Source: Vogesella margarita (lineage in GTDB: Bacteria > Pseudomonadota > Gammaproteobacteria > Burkholderiales > Chromobacteriaceae). From it: a stretch of DNA of 64,000 nucleotides. The stretch spans positions 124,001 to 188,000 of the forward strand of contig NZ_JAQQLE010000001.1 in the NCBI RefSeq assembly GCF_028548475.1. Direction: 5' to 3'. The notes below the pieces were generated by a model, which ran no database searches, was not told where the DNA came from, and worked only from the letters and a program-made list of their open reading frames with translations. The first letter of the stretch is position 1. Each line of letters opens with the position of its first letter. Below, in pieces: positions 29,294 to 36,218 of the stretch. A program made the translations under genes and the position numbers.

Positions 29294-29893
29294 TCAGGCC
29301 AGCTTCTTGATGTAGGCGGCGACGCCCCCCAGCAGCATCTCGATCGAGATCGCGGTCAGCACCAGCCCCATCAGCCGTTCCAGCGCGGTAATCGCCTGTT
29401 CGCCGAGCAGTTTCTGCAGGCGGCCGGAGAACAGGAATACCAGCAGCGTCACCAGCATGGTCAGCGTCAGCGCGCCGACCCACTCCAGTATCCGTTCCGG
29501 CTCACGCGTTGACATCAGCAGCACGGTGGCCATCGCCGACGGGCCGGCAATCAGCGGCACCGCGATCGGCACGATGAACGGCTCGCCGCTCAGCTGGTTG
29601 CCGCCGTGGCCGCCCTCGCCGGGGAAGATCATTTTCAGCGCGATCAGGAACAGGATCACGCCGCCGGCCACGCGCAGGCTCTCGTCGGTGAGGTGCATCA
29701 CCTCCAGGAAGCCCTTGCCGAAGAACATGAAGGTCAAGAGCACGCTGAAGGCGATGAAGCACTCGCGGAATACCACGCGGCGGCGGCGCTCCGGCTTCAC
29801 CTGCTTCAGCGCCGAGATGAACAGCGGAATATTGCCCAGCGGATCGGTGATCAGGATCAGCAGGATGGTGGCGGAGAGAAAGGATGTGTCCAT
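29294..29893 (-). CDS. MarC-family (UPF0056) integral membrane protein
   Basis: A 199-residue membrane protein with six hydrophobic segments. LITDPLGNIPLFISALK and PLIAGPSAMATVLLM are the repeated half-sites of the MarC family. The ATG at 29893 fits the family start; the frame extends to 29968 but through a hairpin. Function of the family is unsettled; the old link to multiple antibiotic resistance has not held up. Confidence 0.88.
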   Translation of the reverse strand: MDTSFLSATILLILITDPLGNIPLFISALKQVKPERRRRVVFRECFIAFSVLLTFMFFGKGFLEVMHLTDESLRVAGGVILFLIALKMIFPGEGGHGGNQLSGEPFIVPIAVPLIAGPSAMATVLLMSTREPERILEWVGALTLTMLVTLLVFLFSGRLQKLLGEQAITALERLMGLVLTAISIEMLLGGVAAYIKKLA

Positions 29894-29916
29894 GGCTGCC
29901 TCGGTGGGTGGATGGC

Positions 29917-29950
29917 AAAAGGGCGTGCGATGGATTATCGCACGCCCTTG
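29917..29950 (-). terminator. Terminator of the RlmL-type methyltransferase gene
   Basis: Perfect 12-bp arms AAGGGCGTGCGA and TCGCACGCCCTT, with TTTT after the arm on the minus strand. A second hairpin, GCCCCGTT-GCTG-AACGGGGC (29969-29988), lies between it and the gene. Confidence 0.85.
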
Positions 29951-29995
29951 CCTGGTGGCTACTGCCATGCCCCGTTGCTGAACGGGGCTGTCGCA

Positions 29996-32785
29996 TTATT
30001 CCTTGCGGTTGGAGCCGGCCACCAGCGGGAAGACGTAGACGCGGCACTCCAGTGCGCCGTTGTACAGCATCGGCCGCGCTTCGGCATTCAGGCGCATCAG
30101 GGCCGGCAGACGGCTGTCGGCGGTCATCAGGTGCGCGGTCCAGCCGGCAAAGTTGCGCTTCAGCCAGGTCGCCAGGCGCGGGTACAGCTCGGCCAGCGAA
30201 TCCTGCTCGTCGAGGCGGACGCCGTACGGCGGGTTGCATACCAGCAGGCCGCTGGCGGCCGGTGCCTGCAGTTCGGTGGCGTCGCCGTGGCTGAGCGTGA
30301 CCAGCGACTCCAGGCCGCAGCGCGTCAGGTTGTGGCGGGCAATCTCCACCATTTCCAGCGACGTGTCGTTGCCGTAGATCGCCAGCTTGTCCAGCTGCCG
30401 TACCGCCAGCTCGGCGTCATTGCGGATGCTGTGCCACAGCAGGTCGTTGTGGGTGTTCAGCTTTTCGAAGGCAAAGTTGCGCAGGCGGCCCGGCGCGCGG
30501 TTGAGCGCGATGTCGGCGGCTTCCACCAGGAAGGTGCCGCTGCCGCACATCGGGTCCAGCAGTGGCTGGCTGCCGTTGTAGCCGGCGCCAAGCAGGATGC
30601 CGGCGGCCAGGTTTTCACGCAGCGGTGCCTCGCCGGTTTCGTCGCGCCAGCCGCGCTTGAACAGTGCCTCGCCGCTGGTGTCGAGATAAATCTGCACGTC
30701 GAAGCCGGACAGGAACACGCGGATGCGGATGTCCGGACGGCGGGTGTCCACGCTCGGGCGCTCGTCGTTCAGTGCGCGGAAGCGGTCGCAGATCGCGTCC
30801 TTCACGATCAGCGACACGTAGTCAATGCTGCGCAGGCGGGCGTGGCCGTCGGTCTTCACCTTGATGGTGTTGCCGACGTCGAACAGCGCCGGCCAGTCGA
30901 TGCTCTTGGCAAGGGTGTAGATGTCGCGCTCGATCTGGAAGCTGCCTTGTGCCAGCTGTTGCAGCAGGCGGCTGGCGGTGCGCGAGTGCAGGTTGACCCG
31001 CATCATCACTTCCTGGTTGCCGGTGAAATGCACGCCGCCGTCGGTCAGCTGCAGGTCGATGCCGCCTTGCTGGCTGATTTCCTCGGCCAGCAGTTTTTCC
31101 AGACCGCGCGGGCAGCTGGCGAACAGTGCCAGCTGGCCTTGCTGCAGGACGCGGGCTTGCGGCTTGGCGTAGGGGGTGCGGCCAACGTTGGCCGCATCGC
31201 CGCGCTGTGGCGTGCTACCGCGCGGGGCGTCGCTGCGCTGCGGCGCATTGCCCTTGCCAAACAACGAGCGTGGTGCCTGCTCGTCACGCGGCGCACTGCG
31301 CTCGCGGTCGAAGCGCGGCTTGTCCTCGCGCGGCCACGGCTTGCGTTCGCCGTCGCGCGGCGCGCTGCTGCGGTCGAAGGTGCGGTCACGCTGGAAGCCG
31401 CCTTCGCGTGCGCCGCTTTGTTCGCCACGGGCGTCAAAGGTGCGGTTGCGCTGGAAGCTGCCTTCGCGGGTTTCTCCGTACGGGCGGTCGTCGCGGCGCG
31501 GTGCCTGCTCGCCGCTGTCGCGCGGCTCTTCGCGGCGCGGTGTCTTCAGGAACGATTTCGGACGCGCCGGCTCGGTGGCTTCGCGTCGCTCGGTGGCCGG
31601 AAAGCTGCGCGGCGCGCTGTCGCCCTCGTCACGGCGTGGCGTTTTCAGAAACGATTTCGGGCGTGGCGGCTCGGCCGGTTCGCGCCGTTCCGGCGCCTGG
31701 AAGTCCGGATGCGCCTTGCCGCGGATGCCGGCCACGCGGTCGCGGGTGTAGCTGCGTTCGCCGCTGGCGGCGGTATTGTCGCTGCTGGCCGGTGCAGGGC
31801 TGTCTTCGACGACTTTGCGGTTGCCGAACAGCACTTTCGGGGCGTTGCCTTCGGCGGCCGGGCTGCGCGGTGCGCTATCGCGCTGGAAGCCGCCTTCGCG
31901 TGGCTTGTCGCCACCGAAACGCGGTTTGTCATCGAAGCGCGGCTTGTTGAAACCGCCTTCGCGTGGTGCCTGGTCGCGGTCGCGCTGGAAGCCGCCTTCA
32001 CGCGGCTTGTCGCCACCGAAGCGTGGTTTGTCGGCGTCAAAGCGCGGCTTGTTGAAACCGCCGTCGCGTGGCGCCTGGTCGCGGTCGCGCGGGAAGCCGC
32101 CTTCACGCGGCTTGTCGCCGCCGAAGCGCGGTCTGTCGGCATCAAAGCGAGGCTTGTTGAAGCCGCCTTCGCGTGGCGCCTGGTCGCGGTCGCGCTGGAA
32201 GCCGCCTTCGCGTGGCTTGTCGCCGCCGAAGCGCGGTTTGTCGGCGTCAAAGCGCGGCTTGTTGAAACCGCCGTCGCGTGGTGCCTGGTCGCGGTCGCGC
32301 TGGAAGCCGCCTTCGGGTGGCTTGTCGCCACCGAAGCGCGGTTTGTCGGCGTCAAAGCGCGGCTTGTTGAAACCGCCTTCGCGCGGTGCCTGGTCGCGGT
32401 CGCGCTGGAAGCCGCCGTCGCGCGGCTTGTCGCCACCGAAACGTGGTTTGTCAGAGTCAAAGCGCGGCTTGTTGAAACCGCCTTCGCGAGGCTTGTCGCC
32501 TCCGAAGCGTGGCTTGTCAGCGTCAAAGCGTGGCTTGTTGAAACCGCCTTCGCGTGGCTGGTCGCCGCCGAAGCGTGGTTTGTCGCTACCGAAGCGCGGG
32601 TCCTTGTCGCGGGGGGCGCCGTAGCGACCTTCCTGCCGTGTATCGCCGGCGCGCGGTTGTTGGAATGGTTTGTCGCCACGCGGGCCGGTCGGGGCATTGT
32701 TCCCGGCTGGTGGCGTGGCGCGCTCGGCGGTCGGAGTGGGCTGACGGCGTTGCGCGGCGCGCTGGCGGGAACGGAAGGTCGACAT
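29996..32785 (-). CDS. rlmL: RlmL-type THUMP/SAM-dependent RNA methyltransferase with a 545-residue repetitive disordered N-terminus
   Basis: The C-terminal 384 residues (546-929) are a complete COG0116/RlmL-type enzyme: THUMP region (FASCPRGLEKLLAEEI onward), SAM motif LLDPMCGSGTFLVEAADIAL and catalytic VCNPPYGVRL. By family it would methylate 23S rRNA (m2G2445 type). Residues 1-545 have no fold: they are rich in Arg, Asp, Gly, Pro and Phe. Residues 79-307 consist of a 22-aa unit ((E/D)GGFNKPRFDADKPRFGG) seven times, alternating from the second on with a 13-aa unit (EGGFQRDRDQAPR). A later pair of RPKSFLKTPRR repeats follows. The linker at 531-537 is AANVGRT, encoded by the palindromic dispersed word. 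The ATG at 32785 leaves 115 bp to the divergent mutY. Enzyme part is sure; rRNA target is by family only. Confidence 0.88.
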   Translation of the reverse strand: MSTFRSRQRAAQRRQPTPTAERATPPAGNNAPTGPRGDKPFQQPRAGDTRQEGRYGAPRDKDPRFGSDKPRFGGDQPREGGFNKPRFDADKPRFGGDKPREGGFNKPRFDSDKPRFGGDKPRDGGFQRDRDQAPREGGFNKPRFDADKPRFGGDKPPEGGFQRDRDQAPRDGGFNKPRFDADKPRFGGDKPREGGFQRDRDQAPREGGFNKPRFDADRPRFGGDKPREGGFPRDRDQAPRDGGFNKPRFDADKPRFGGDKPREGGFQRDRDQAPREGGFNKPRFDDKPRFGGDKPREGGFQRDSAPRSPAAEGNAPKVLFGNRKVVEDSPAPASSDNTAASGERSYTRDRVAGIRGKAHPDFQAPERREPAEPPRPKSFLKTPRRDEGDSAPRSFPATERREATEPARPKSFLKTPRREEPRDSGEQAPRRDDRPYGETREGSFQRNRTFDARGEQSGAREGGFQRDRTFDRSSAPRDGERKPWPREDKPRFDRERSAPRDEQAPRSLFGKGNAPQRSDAPRGSTPQRGDAANVGRTPYAKPQARVLQQGQLALFASCPRGLEKLLAEEISQQGGIDLQLTDGGVHFTGNQEVMMRVNLHSRTASRLLQQLAQGSFQIERDIYTLAKSIDWPALFDVGNTIKVKTDGHARLRSIDYVSLIVKDAICDRFRALNDERPSVDTRRPDIRIRVFLSGFDVQIYLDTSGEALFKRGWRDETGEAPLRENLAAGILLGAGYNGSQPLLDPMCGSGTFLVEAADIALNRAPGRLRNFAFEKLNTHNDLLWHSIRNDAELAVRQLDKLAIYGNDTSLEMVEIARHNLTRCGLESLVTLSHGDATELQAPAASGLLVCNPPYGVRLDEQDSLAELYPRLATWLKRNFAGWTAHLMTADSRLPALMRLNAEARPMLYNGALECRVYVFPLVAGSNRKE
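31177..31196. repeat. Palindromic dispersed word in the methyltransferase linker
   Basis: Perfect 20-bp palindrome TGCGGCCAACGTTGGCCGCA, read on the minus strand as AANVGR at the junction of the disordered region and the THUMP domain. It has the same 18-bp core as the element in maiA. Confidence 0.9.
31865..32551 (-). repeat. In-frame tandem repeat, 105-bp period
   Basis: Coding repeat of the methyltransferase N-terminus. Five full 105-bp units lie at 31961-32485 (residues 101-275), with partial units on both sides. Each unit holds one 66-bp and one 39-bp subunit. Copies differ mostly at third positions and at E/D, R/P and K/R exchanges. Confidence 0.92.
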
Positions 32786-32900
32786 CTGAGGGTAATCCTT
32801 TCAAAACAATCCTCTATTCTAGCCGATTTCGCCGGCGACTTCTTGGTAGTCGCGGATGATTGGTTTACCATGCCCGGTTCGATTCGGAGTGGATGATGCG

Positions 32901-33971
32901 ATGACCTTGCAGTCGGCGTTTGCGGCGCGCCTCGTCGCCTGGCAGAAACAGCACGGCCGGCACGGTTTGCCGTGGCAGGTCAGTGATCCCTATCGCGTGT
33001 GGCTGTCGGAAATCATGCTGCAGCAGACGCAGGTGACCACGGTGCTGGGCTACTACGCGCGCTTTCTTGAGCGCTTCCCCGATCTGGCCACGTTGGCCGC
33101 GGCGCCGGTGGATGACGTGCTGGCGCACTGGAGCGGCCTCGGCTACTACACCCGCGCCCGCAACCTGCACAAGGCAGCGCAGCAGGTGATGGCCGACTTT
33201 GGCGGCGCGTTTCCGGCGCGGCGCGAGGCGATCGAGACGCTGCCCGGCATCGGCCGCTCCACCGCGGCGGCGATTGCCGCCTTTGCCTTCGGCCAGCGGG
33301 AAACCATACTCGACGGCAATGTCAAACGCGTGCTGACGCGCTGCTTCGGCGTCGACGGCTATCCCGGCGACAAGAAGGTCGAGGCGCAGCTGTGGACGCT
33401 GGCGGAGAGCCTGCTGCCGGCCGCCGACGGCGACATGGTCGCCTACACCCAGGGGTTGATGGATCTGGGCGCCACCGTCTGTACCCGCTCGCGGCCGGCC
33501 TGCGGTGTTTGCCCGATGGCGGACGGCTGCGTCGCCGCCCGCGACGGCCGCACCGCCGAGCTGCCGCAGCGCAAGCCCAAAAAGGCGCAGCCGGAACGGG
33601 AGACGGTGATGCTGATCGCGCTGCACCAGGGGCAGGTGCTGTTGCAGCGCCGGCCGCCTTCCGGCATCTGGGGTGGGCTGCTGTCGCTGCCGGAATTCGG
33701 GTCCACGCTGGCGATTGCCGACTGGCTGGTGGACAACGGCGACGGCGAGCTGCTGCCGGCGTGGCCGGAATTGCGCCACGTGTTTACCCATTTTCGCCTC
33801 ACCATCACGCCGCAGTGTGTGCCGCTGCAAAGCTTGGCCGCAAGCCATTGCGCCGAAGACGGCCAGGTCTGGCTGCCGCTGGCGCAGGCGCTGGACGCCG
33901 GCGTGCCGGCGCCGGTACGCAAATTGCTGTTGCAGGCCTTGCGGTCGCCGGCCGGCGCCACCATTGATTAA
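32901..33971 (+). CDS. mutY: A/G-specific adenine DNA glycosylase
   Basis: Removes adenine mispaired with 8-oxoguanine. The 356-residue product has SEIMLQQTQVTTV (catalytic Glu), the helix-hairpin-helix LPGIGRSTAAAIAAFAFG with the catalytic Asp in ILDGNVKRVL, and a 4Fe-4S loop C-x6-C-x2-C-x5-C (CTRSRPACGVCPMADGC). The C-terminal third is the NUDIX-like 8-oxoG recognition domain (RRPPSGIWGGLLSLPEF). The ATG at 32901 is the family start; GGAG lies upstream. It runs toward relA, 39 bp away. Confidence 0.96.
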   Translation: MTLQSAFAARLVAWQKQHGRHGLPWQVSDPYRVWLSEIMLQQTQVTTVLGYYARFLERFPDLATLAAAPVDDVLAHWSGLGYYTRARNLHKAAQQVMADFGGAFPARREAIETLPGIGRSTAAAIAAFAFGQRETILDGNVKRVLTRCFGVDGYPGDKKVEAQLWTLAESLLPAADGDMVAYTQGLMDLGATVCTRSRPACGVCPMADGCVAARDGRTAELPQRKPKKAQPERETVMLIALHQGQVLLQRRPPSGIWGGLLSLPEFGSTLAIADWLVDNGDGELLPAWPELRHVFTHFRLTITPQCVPLQSLAASHCAEDGQVWLPLAQALDAGVPAPVRKLLLQALRSPAGATID

Positions 33972-34010
33972 TCCCGAGACGCCATCACAGGCAGGGTGAA
34001 AGACTAGACC

Positions 34011-36218
34011 ATGGTTTCCGTTGTTCGATCTGTTGCCGATACGCTGGCCGATGCGGCCGATCCGGGGCGCTGGCTGGCGCAGTTGTCCAGCTCGGTCGCG
34101 CCCGACGATATGGCGATGCTGGAAAAGGCGTTTGCGGAAGCGCGCGAGCTGTACCGCGACAAGAAGCTGCCGAGCACCGGCGAGGACCTGTTCAGCCACG
34201 CGGTGGCGGCGGCGGCCATCGTCGCCGACCTCAACCTGCTGACCGACGCCATCGTCGCCACGCTGCTGTTCGCGGTGCCGGACTACCGTGCCGACTGGCA
34301 GGAGTGGTTGCCCAAGACGTTCAACCGCACCGTGCTGACGCTGGTGGAGGGCGGCAACCGCGTGCGCCGCCTCACCGAGATCGCGCGCATCGACAAGTTC
34401 GCCACGCCTGAAGACAGCGCGCGGCAGGCGGAAACCCTGCGCAAGATGCTGCTGGCGATGGTGGCCGACATCCGCGTGGTGCTGATCAAGCTGGCGTGGC
34501 GCACGCAGACCATGCACTACCTGCCGCAGTGCGACGAGCCCGTCCGCCGCCAGATCGCGCGCGAGACGCTGGAGCTGTTCGCGCCGCTGGCCAACCGTCT
34601 CGGCGTTTGGCAGATCAAGTGGGAGCTGGAAGACCTCGGCTTCCGCCATACCGATCCGGACAACTACAAGAAGATCGCCAAGCTGCTCGACGAGCGGCGG
34701 CTGGAGCGCATCGACTACATCGAGCGCGTGCTGGACACCCTGCGCGGCGAGCTGCGCCAAGCCGGCATCAAGGGTGACGTCGCCGGCCGGCCGAAGCACA
34801 TCTTCTCCATCTGGAAGAAGATGAAGAAGAAAAAGCTCGACTTCTCCGAGCTGTACGACATCCGCGCGGTGCGCATCCTGGTGGAAAAGCTGCAGGACTG
34901 CTACACCGTGCTCGGCCTGATCCACAGCATGTGGCAGCCGATACCCGGCGAATTCGACGACTACATCAGCAACCCGAAGGCCAACGACTACCGCAGCCTG
35001 CACACCGCGGTGATCGGCCCGGAAGACCGCGTGGTCGAGGTGCAAATCCGCACCTTCGAGATGCACGAGCACGCCGAATTCGGCGTCGCCGCACACTGGC
35101 GCTACAAGGAAGGCGGCAAGGGCGACAGCCAGTACGAGGAGAAGATCTCCTGGCTGCGCCAGCTGCTGGACTGGCGCGAGGACATGTCCGGCTCCGACCG
35201 CGAAGGGCTGGCCGACGCGTTCAAGACCGAGCTGTTCGCCGACACCATCTACGTGCTGACGCCGCAGGGGCGGGTGCTGGCGCTGCCGCAGGGCGCCACC
35301 GCCATCGACTTCGCCTACGCGCTGCATACCGACGTCGGCCACCACTGCCGCGGCGCCAAGGTCGAGGGGCACATCGTGCCGCTGTCCACCCCGCTGCAGA
35401 ACGGCCAGCGGGTGGAAATCCTCACCGCCAAGGAGGGCGGCCCGTCGGTGAACTGGCTGCACGAGGGCTGGGTCAAGAGCCATCGCGCGATCTCCAAGAT
35501 CCGTCAGTACATCCGCCAGCAGAACCTCGACGCGGTGCGCGAGACCGGGCGCCACATCTTCGAGCGCGAGCTGGCACGGCACCCCGGTGTGCAGCCCAAC
35601 CTCGCGCAGGTGGCGGAAAAACTGGGCTACGACAAGCTGGATGAGGTCTACGCCGCGCTGGGCCACGGCGAACTGGGCACCCGCGCCGTCAACCAGGCCT
35701 TCGTCAGCTTCGCGCCGCCGCCGCCGCCGGACGTCAACCCGGAAGACATCGTGCGCCGCAGCCGTGGCGGCCACGACGCCGGCGGCGTGCTGATCGAGGG
35801 CGTCGGCAACCTGATGACGGTGCTGGCCAAGTGCTGCCGCCCGGCGCCGCCGGACAGCGTGGTCGGCTTCGTCACCAAGGGCCGCGGCATCTCCATCCAC
35901 CGCAGCAGCTGCATCACGCTGAAGCGGCTGTCGGCCGACGTGCCGGAGCGGCTGATCGCCGCCGACTGGGGCGAGCAGAAGGGCAGCGTGTTCCCGATCG
36001 ACATCGACATCCTCGCCGGCGACCGCCCGGGGCTGTTGCGCGACATCTCCGACGTGTTCTCGCGCGAGAAGCTGAACGTGATCGGCGTGAATACGCTGTC
36101 GCGCGAGCAGAAGGCGCGTCTGCGCTTCACGCTGGAGGTGCGCCACGTGCGCGACATCAGCCGGGTGCTGGCGCACCTGATGGAAGTGCGCGGCGTGCAG
36201 GAAGCGCGCCGCGTGTAG
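34011..36218 (+). CDS. relA: (p)ppGpp synthetase RelA
   Basis: Makes the stringent-response alarmone on stalled ribosomes. The 735-residue protein has a degenerate hydrolase domain (LLFAVPDY where SpoT/Rel enzymes have the HD pair), a synthetase domain with GRPKHIFSIWKKM and the RelA-specific EXDD motif in GEFDDYISNPKAND, then a TGS domain (TPQGRVLALPQGATAIDFAY) and a C-terminal ACT domain. The missing HD and the EXDD motif mark it as RelA, not bifunctional SpoT. A terminator built from the dispersed word follows. Confidence 0.96.
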   Translation: MVSVVRSVADTLADAADPGRWLAQLSSSVAPDDMAMLEKAFAEARELYRDKKLPSTGEDLFSHAVAAAAIVADLNLLTDAIVATLLFAVPDYRADWQEWLPKTFNRTVLTLVEGGNRVRRLTEIARIDKFATPEDSARQAETLRKMLLAMVADIRVVLIKLAWRTQTMHYLPQCDEPVRRQIARETLELFAPLANRLGVWQIKWELEDLGFRHTDPDNYKKIAKLLDERRLERIDYIERVLDTLRGELRQAGIKGDVAGRPKHIFSIWKKMKKKKLDFSELYDIRAVRILVEKLQDCYTVLGLIHSMWQPIPGEFDDYISNPKANDYRSLHTAVIGPEDRVVEVQIRTFEMHEHAEFGVAAHWRYKEGGKGDSQYEEKISWLRQLLDWREDMSGSDREGLADAFKTELFADTIYVLTPQGRVLALPQGATAIDFAYALHTDVGHHCRGAKVEGHIVPLSTPLQNGQRVEILTAKEGGPSVNWLHEGWVKSHRAISKIRQYIRQQNLDAVRETGRHIFERELARHPGVQPNLAQVAEKLGYDKLDEVYAALGHGELGTRAVNQAFVSFAPPPPPDVNPEDIVRRSRGGHDAGGVLIEGVGNLMTVLAKCCRPAPPDSVVGFVTKGRGISIHRSSCITLKRLSADVPERLIAADWGEQKGSVFPIDIDILAGDRPGLLRDISDVFSREKLNVIGVNTLSREQKARLRFTLEVRHVRDISRVLAHLMEVRGVQEARRV

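Follow-up and report, generated by a model that had tools for sequence, protein, structure and literature searches.

A long disordered N-terminal arm on the predicted 23S rRNA methyltransferase RlmL of Vogesella and its family

Introduction

In eukaryotes, the organisation of the nucleolus is linked to disordered tails of the enzymes that modify rRNA; bacteria do not have a nucleolus. In yeast, the polyampholyte KKE/D domains of Cbf5, Nop56 and Nop58 are reported to recruit rRNA-modification complexes to nascent rRNA and to aid the modification, and kappa values of 0.1-0.4 are described as the range for electrostatic self-association (PMC11528048). The GAR domain of fibrillarin is a disordered N-terminal arm rich in Arg, Gly and Phe on an rRNA methyltransferase; it clusters nascent pre-rRNA, and related enzymes are armless (PMC7194090). 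Loc1p, another disordered factor of yeast, catalyses the folding of RNA, and E. coli PUN proteins are defined by at least three PUN motifs (PMC11662656). The closest described enzyme is the L half of E. coli RlmKL. Helix 74 is unwound by RlmKL, an early-acting enzyme whose K domain strongly enhances L activity; the exchange N309A in RlmL abolishes m2G2445, and RlmL promotes 50S assembly even when catalytically dead (PMC11194073).

The window analysed here is a stretch of 64,000 nucleotides from Vogesella margarita (contig NZ_JAQQLE010000001.1, positions 124,001 to 188,000). An initial annotation had described one of its genes as an rRNA methyltransferase with a disordered, tandem-repeated N-terminal arm longer than the enzyme itself. 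No publication on an RlmL arm in the family of Vogesella was found in the literature searched.

Results

The 929-residue protein has the domain order RlmL_1st (residues 554-608), THUMP (620-702) and UPF0020 (711-915), with Pfam E-values of 7e-19, 9e-16 and 1.9e-48, respectively, all matches lying above the curated cut-offs. RlmKL is the closest NCBIfam model (E 2.7e-103) and is matched across its L half only, as profile positions 4-384 of 704 are covered and the score of 346.5 bits misses the full RlmKL cut-off of 466. A bifunctional RlmKL enzyme was ruled out by this score together with the absence of the C-terminal RlmK half. The closest solved structure in a PDB search is E. coli RlmKL (3v97, E 7.6e-71), whose L half, like unfused RlmL of other bacteria, agrees with it in domain order, fold and the catalytic NPPY motif. 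The predicted model of residues 550-924 fits 3v97 at Z 20, which is still well above the unrelated rows although AlphaFold was run on a 21-row alignment and the UPF0020 part 705-777 is of low confidence. The DPMCGSGT and NPPY motifs are intact, and the Asn of NPPY is probably the counterpart of N309 in E. coli RlmL. The methyltransferase assignment was thus borne out by Pfam, NCBIfam and PDB matches: the gene is rlmL and is predicted to encode the 23S rRNA m2G2445 methyltransferase. Two separate PF10672 methyltransferases are encoded elsewhere in the Vogesella genome, so that the RlmK-like activity is likely to be unfused. Among named records the enzyme of V. fluminis is closest (98% identity).

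Table 1. Positions of rlmL, its arm and the conserved motifs in the window
Feature	Position	Strand	Basis
rlmL, 929 aa	29996..32785	minus	ORF with ATG start and stop; Pfam/NCBIfam/PDB matches
RlmL catalytic region, residues 549-929	29999..31141	minus	Pfam, PDB, fold match
NPPY catalytic motif, residues 851-854	30224..30235	minus	invariant in alignments A1 and A2
Shine-Dalgarno-like GAAAGGA	32796..32802	minus	10 nt 5' of the arm's ATG; sequence
N-terminal disordered polyampholyte arm, residues 1-548	31142..32785	minus	composition, AlphaFold, family comparison
Repeat stretch, residues 62-303	31877..32602	minus	105-bp array 31878-32492, 66-bp array 32408-32584 (TRF)
Conserved basic tip MSTFRSRQRAAQRR, residues 1-14	32744..32785	minus	near-invariant in alignment A2; predicted helix 2-13
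YTRDRVAGIRGKAHPD, YxRDR-type motif, residues 346-361	31703..31750	minus	common to Vogesella, Chromobacterium, Aquitalea and a g8 genome
PRSLFGKG, PRxLF(G/S/A)K motif, residues 505-512	31250..31273	minus	recurs in other genera

The enzyme part starts at about residue 549, and the preceding arm of about 548 residues (545 in the initial annotation) is indeed longer than the enzyme. The interval 31865-32785 originally assigned to it does lie within the arm and covers residues 1-307 only, the arm continuing to about position 31142. The two arrays found by TRF have periods of 105 bp (5.9 copies, 92% matches, no indels) and 66 bp (2.7 copies). As had been described, the longer period equals 35 residues, made up of a 22-residue and a 13-residue unit. 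Residues 304-548 are close in composition to the repeat half and mostly without repeats. Throughout the arm Arg (17%), Pro (13%), Gly (12.5%), Asp (11%), Phe (8%), Lys (6%) and Glu (6%) are prominent, Ile, Leu, Val and Met together account for 2%, and Cys is absent. The disorder that had been read from this composition is also predicted by AlphaFold, which places residues 14-544 below pLDDT 50, and by the charge-hydropathy line, with the arm on the disordered and the enzyme on the folded side.

With 40% charged residues, an NCPR of +0.063 and a kappa of 0.066, the arm is a well-mixed polyampholyte with Phe at even spacing: its charges are better mixed than in every shuffle (200/200), and none of 500 shuffles reached the evenness of its aromatics. 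The label RGG-like is strictly wrong, as 0 RGG, 5 RG, 14 GGF and 8 FGG were counted, and these few RG sites with near-neutral charge differ from the clustered RGG/RG and strong positive charge of an RGG/GAR domain. The arm likewise differs from KKE/D-type domains, with their Lys doublets, acidic residues and kappa of 0.1-0.4, in containing 0 KK and in its lower kappa. With no RGG, charges near balance and such a kappa, the first suggestion of a composition like that of RNA-binding and condensate-forming proteins was not supported. Two non-overlapping PUN motifs were found in the window arm, with the enzyme part left out of the count, and 5-9 in the arms of Chromobacterium and Aquitalea. The Vogesella genome has no second gene with the same arm.

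An in-frame stop lies a few codons 5' of the arm's ATG. No ATG follows Met1, and only three start-like codons lie inside the arm, a GTG at each of residues 317 and 350 and a TTG at residue 507. In comparisons of five sister species, the enzyme gave a dN/dS of 0.04-0.15, the non-repeat part of the arm 0.11-0.28 and the repeats 0.06-0.11; the value for the repeats is rough, since aligning paralogous copies with one another pushes up dS. The more distant pair G006/G011 gave 0.23-0.24 for the arm and 0.19 for the enzyme. Between repeat copies, 22-25% of third codon positions and about 3% of first and second positions differ, and all TRF periods listed in 28 arms are multiples of three. Together, the evidence from selection, codon positions and periods leaves little room for an untranslated arm; the constraint acts at the protein level and the arm is therefore translated. 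An internal start near residue 545, which would leave the arm out of the expressed protein, was ruled out by the lack of an ATG after Met1 and by purifying selection across the whole arm. A local assembly error was ruled out as well, since arms of the same kind are present in single-contig (closed) genomes. A plus-strand open frame of 1096 residues (29606-32896) overlaps rlmL in antisense; it was rejected as a gene, because substitutions fall at third codon positions of the minus frame, and comes from the high GC and the repeats.

Arm length changes through in-frame gain and loss of repeats. Sister species with enzyme cores at least 96% identical have arms of 459-555 residues, and another pair has 421 and 631, each species being represented by one genome; several draft genomes split tip and enzyme between contigs, and draft copy numbers need care. 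The suggested variation in copy number is thus supported between species. The copies are not slippery identical DNA (22% of third against 2.9% of first and second positions differ). The signal of recent concerted evolution of the copies within Vogesella species is weak, the observed value being reached in 63 of 1000 permutations.

The enzyme was found in 58 of 61 genomes of the family, most of them with an arm 5' of it, including genomes of Vogesella, Chromobacterium, Aquitalea, Gulbenkiania, Crenobacter and Craterilacuibacter. The arm thus characterises the family and is no peculiarity of one strain. Arms of Vogesella have 421-652 residues, those of the Chromobacterium group 295-517 and those of Aquitalea 514-580; Gulbenkiania has 262, g8 has 77-325, Crenobacter/Craterilacuibacter have 41-54, and the genera g5 and g6 have 0. 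At positions 29294-36218 of the window the order is marC-rlmL-(divergent) mutY-relA, which is kept across the family. Loci that have an arm and loci that lack one, including those of g5, g6 and the armless L107 from outside the family, agree in the order relA-mutY-rlmL-marC, which indicates that the arm arose at its present place and not via rearrangement. On a tree whose deep forks are poorly resolved, g5 and g6 may either have lost the arm or never have had it. E. coli RlmL and Neisseria are armless, and RlmL without an arm is the rule elsewhere in the order Burkholderiales. Of 19 long upstream frames examined there, 18 are chance frames or short and one is a charged tail of 112 residues. 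A highly charged N-terminal RlmL tail of about 110 residues (MTDKRKPRGTLSISREDG...) is present in L286 (G285) of another family of the order, with one stop within the match. L105 (G349), from a family grouping with Chitinolyticbacter, has a 340-residue RlmL arm with its own 105-nt repeat (4.6 copies) and a different N-terminus, and these features suggest that this arm was probably acquired independently. Plasmid records gave matches to the enzyme only.

Most of the arm is poorly alignable, yet its first residues follow the consensus M-[SA]-x-F-R-[SA]-R-Q-R-A-x-x-R-R, in which M1, F4, R5, R7, Q8, R9, A10, R13 and R14 are near-invariant in alignment A2. This tip precedes an unconserved spacer of 40-650 residues. 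AlphaFold draws helix 2-13 at low confidence (pLDDT 43-48). Its core M..FR.RQR occurs once in the Vogesella genome, in rlmL, and the tip was found on no other protein of that genome. PRxLF[GSA]K or similar forms (FISR, FLSR) were found in several genera. In Chromobacterium, Aquitalea, Gulbenkiania and some g8 genomes LF.K-type motifs are clearly enriched; in Vogesella they are not more frequent than in shuffles. The arms of Crenobacter/Craterilacuibacter (L075, L073, L088) consist of 41-54 residues with the FRSRQR tip and a RHFIRP stretch, lack repeats and are a natural short version.

Repeat units turn over completely between genera while net charge and charge mixing barely change. The 20 arms of at least 400 residues have an FCR of 0.38-0.49 and an NCPR between +0.049 and +0.068 (mean 0.059, sd 0.0055 against 0.028 for independent draws), every long arm listed has better-mixed charges than all of its 200 shuffles, and the aromatics of these arms are more even than in nearly all of 500 shuffles; these shuffle and binomial tests overstate independence, given the repeat copying of one well-mixed unit and the kinship of the 20 arms. 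The L105 arm (NCPR +0.053, FCR 0.46) has a charge balance like that of the family arms. Tip and bulk electrostatics thus persist while the repeat units get replaced.

Discussion

The reading favored here, tentatively and with confidence somewhat short of even, is that the arm acts as a leash, a basic tip on a long flexible chain that would hold RlmL on nascent 23S rRNA or the pre-50S particle. The tip helix, perhaps together with the PRxLFGK and YxRDR motifs, would dock on nascent 23S rRNA or on an assembly partner. The chain itself, with its even Phe spacing, good charge mixing and slight positive charge, would stay extended and give reach; a kappa of 0.066, compared with the range of 0.1-0.4, favors an extended chain over electrostatic self-association. 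Weak, multivalent Arg/Phe contacts of the chain with RNA could then keep RlmL at its early pre-50S substrate, which might raise m2G2445 methylation and help the catalysis-independent part of RlmL in 50S assembly. Against such anchoring stand the near neutrality of the arm, whose repeat part may have weak RNA affinity, and the close relatives g5 and g6 and most of the order, which are without an arm.

The armless locus of g5 and g6 and the complete turnover of repeat units would also suit a solubility tail (entropic bristle) or a tolerated expansion, that is, a near-neutral passenger made by slippage and kept merely because it is harmless, being soluble, unstructured and Cys-free. This is unlikely in view of the near-invariant tip, the low dN/dS over the whole arm, the conserved motifs and the persistence throughout the family. 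The abundance of Arg, Phe and Gly and the even aromatic spacing bring to mind a condensate in which the repeats would gather RlmL with rRNA in a nucleolus-like cluster, as the GAR domain does on fibrillarin. Such clustering is likewise not a probable role, because RGG is missing, acidic residues nearly equal basic ones (net charge only +0.06), the low kappa speaks against an electrostatic route and aromatics are scarce in the Gulbenkiania and g8 arms (about 2-5%). It is more doubtful that the chain melts or anneals rRNA around helix 74 as an RNA chaperone in the manner of Loc1p, standing in for the stimulation by a fused RlmK that E. coli has and Vogesella lacks, since the majority of unfused RlmLs in the order are armless and only 2 PUN motifs occur in the window arm, even if the arms of Chromobacterium and Aquitalea have more.

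Among known systems, the eukaryotic domains invite comparison with the arm. It shares with KKE/D domains a strongly polyampholyte, slightly positive disordered tail on rRNA-modification machinery and differs from them in having Arg and Phe/Gly in place of Lys doublets, in being bacterial and tandem-repeated, and in its separate origin. The fibrillarin GAR domain is RGG-rich, positive and without acidic balance, and it belongs to another enzyme family; no common ancestry is claimed. A wider conjecture, which we regard as improbable, is that the arm is a bacterial counterpart of nucleolar disordered domains, selected for length, charge balance, charge mixing and aromatic spacing and not for sequence, so that unrelated repeats, also in a second family, would have converged on one polymer concentrating the enzyme at sites of rRNA synthesis. 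Arms of 0, 41-54, 77 and 173-650 residues form a natural series at one locus on one enzyme. This series opens bacterial tests of the role of disordered tails on rRNA-modification enzymes and of whether selection can act on a disordered region as a polymer even as the sequence changes.

Bacterial DEAD-box helicases and RluB likewise carry disordered, Arg-rich tails on rRNA-maturation enzymes; these are shorter than the RlmL arm, have other motifs and are C-terminal in the helicases. Tails of this kind also occur on other RNA enzymes of the Vogesella genome (G000:C1:384465, L212; G000:C12:10347, L215; G000:C1:423527, L237). One DEAD-box helicase ends in (RSERPE)n-like repeats, another has a GGY/RG-rich tail, and a RluB-like pseudouridine synthase has an N-terminal basic arm of about 200 residues.
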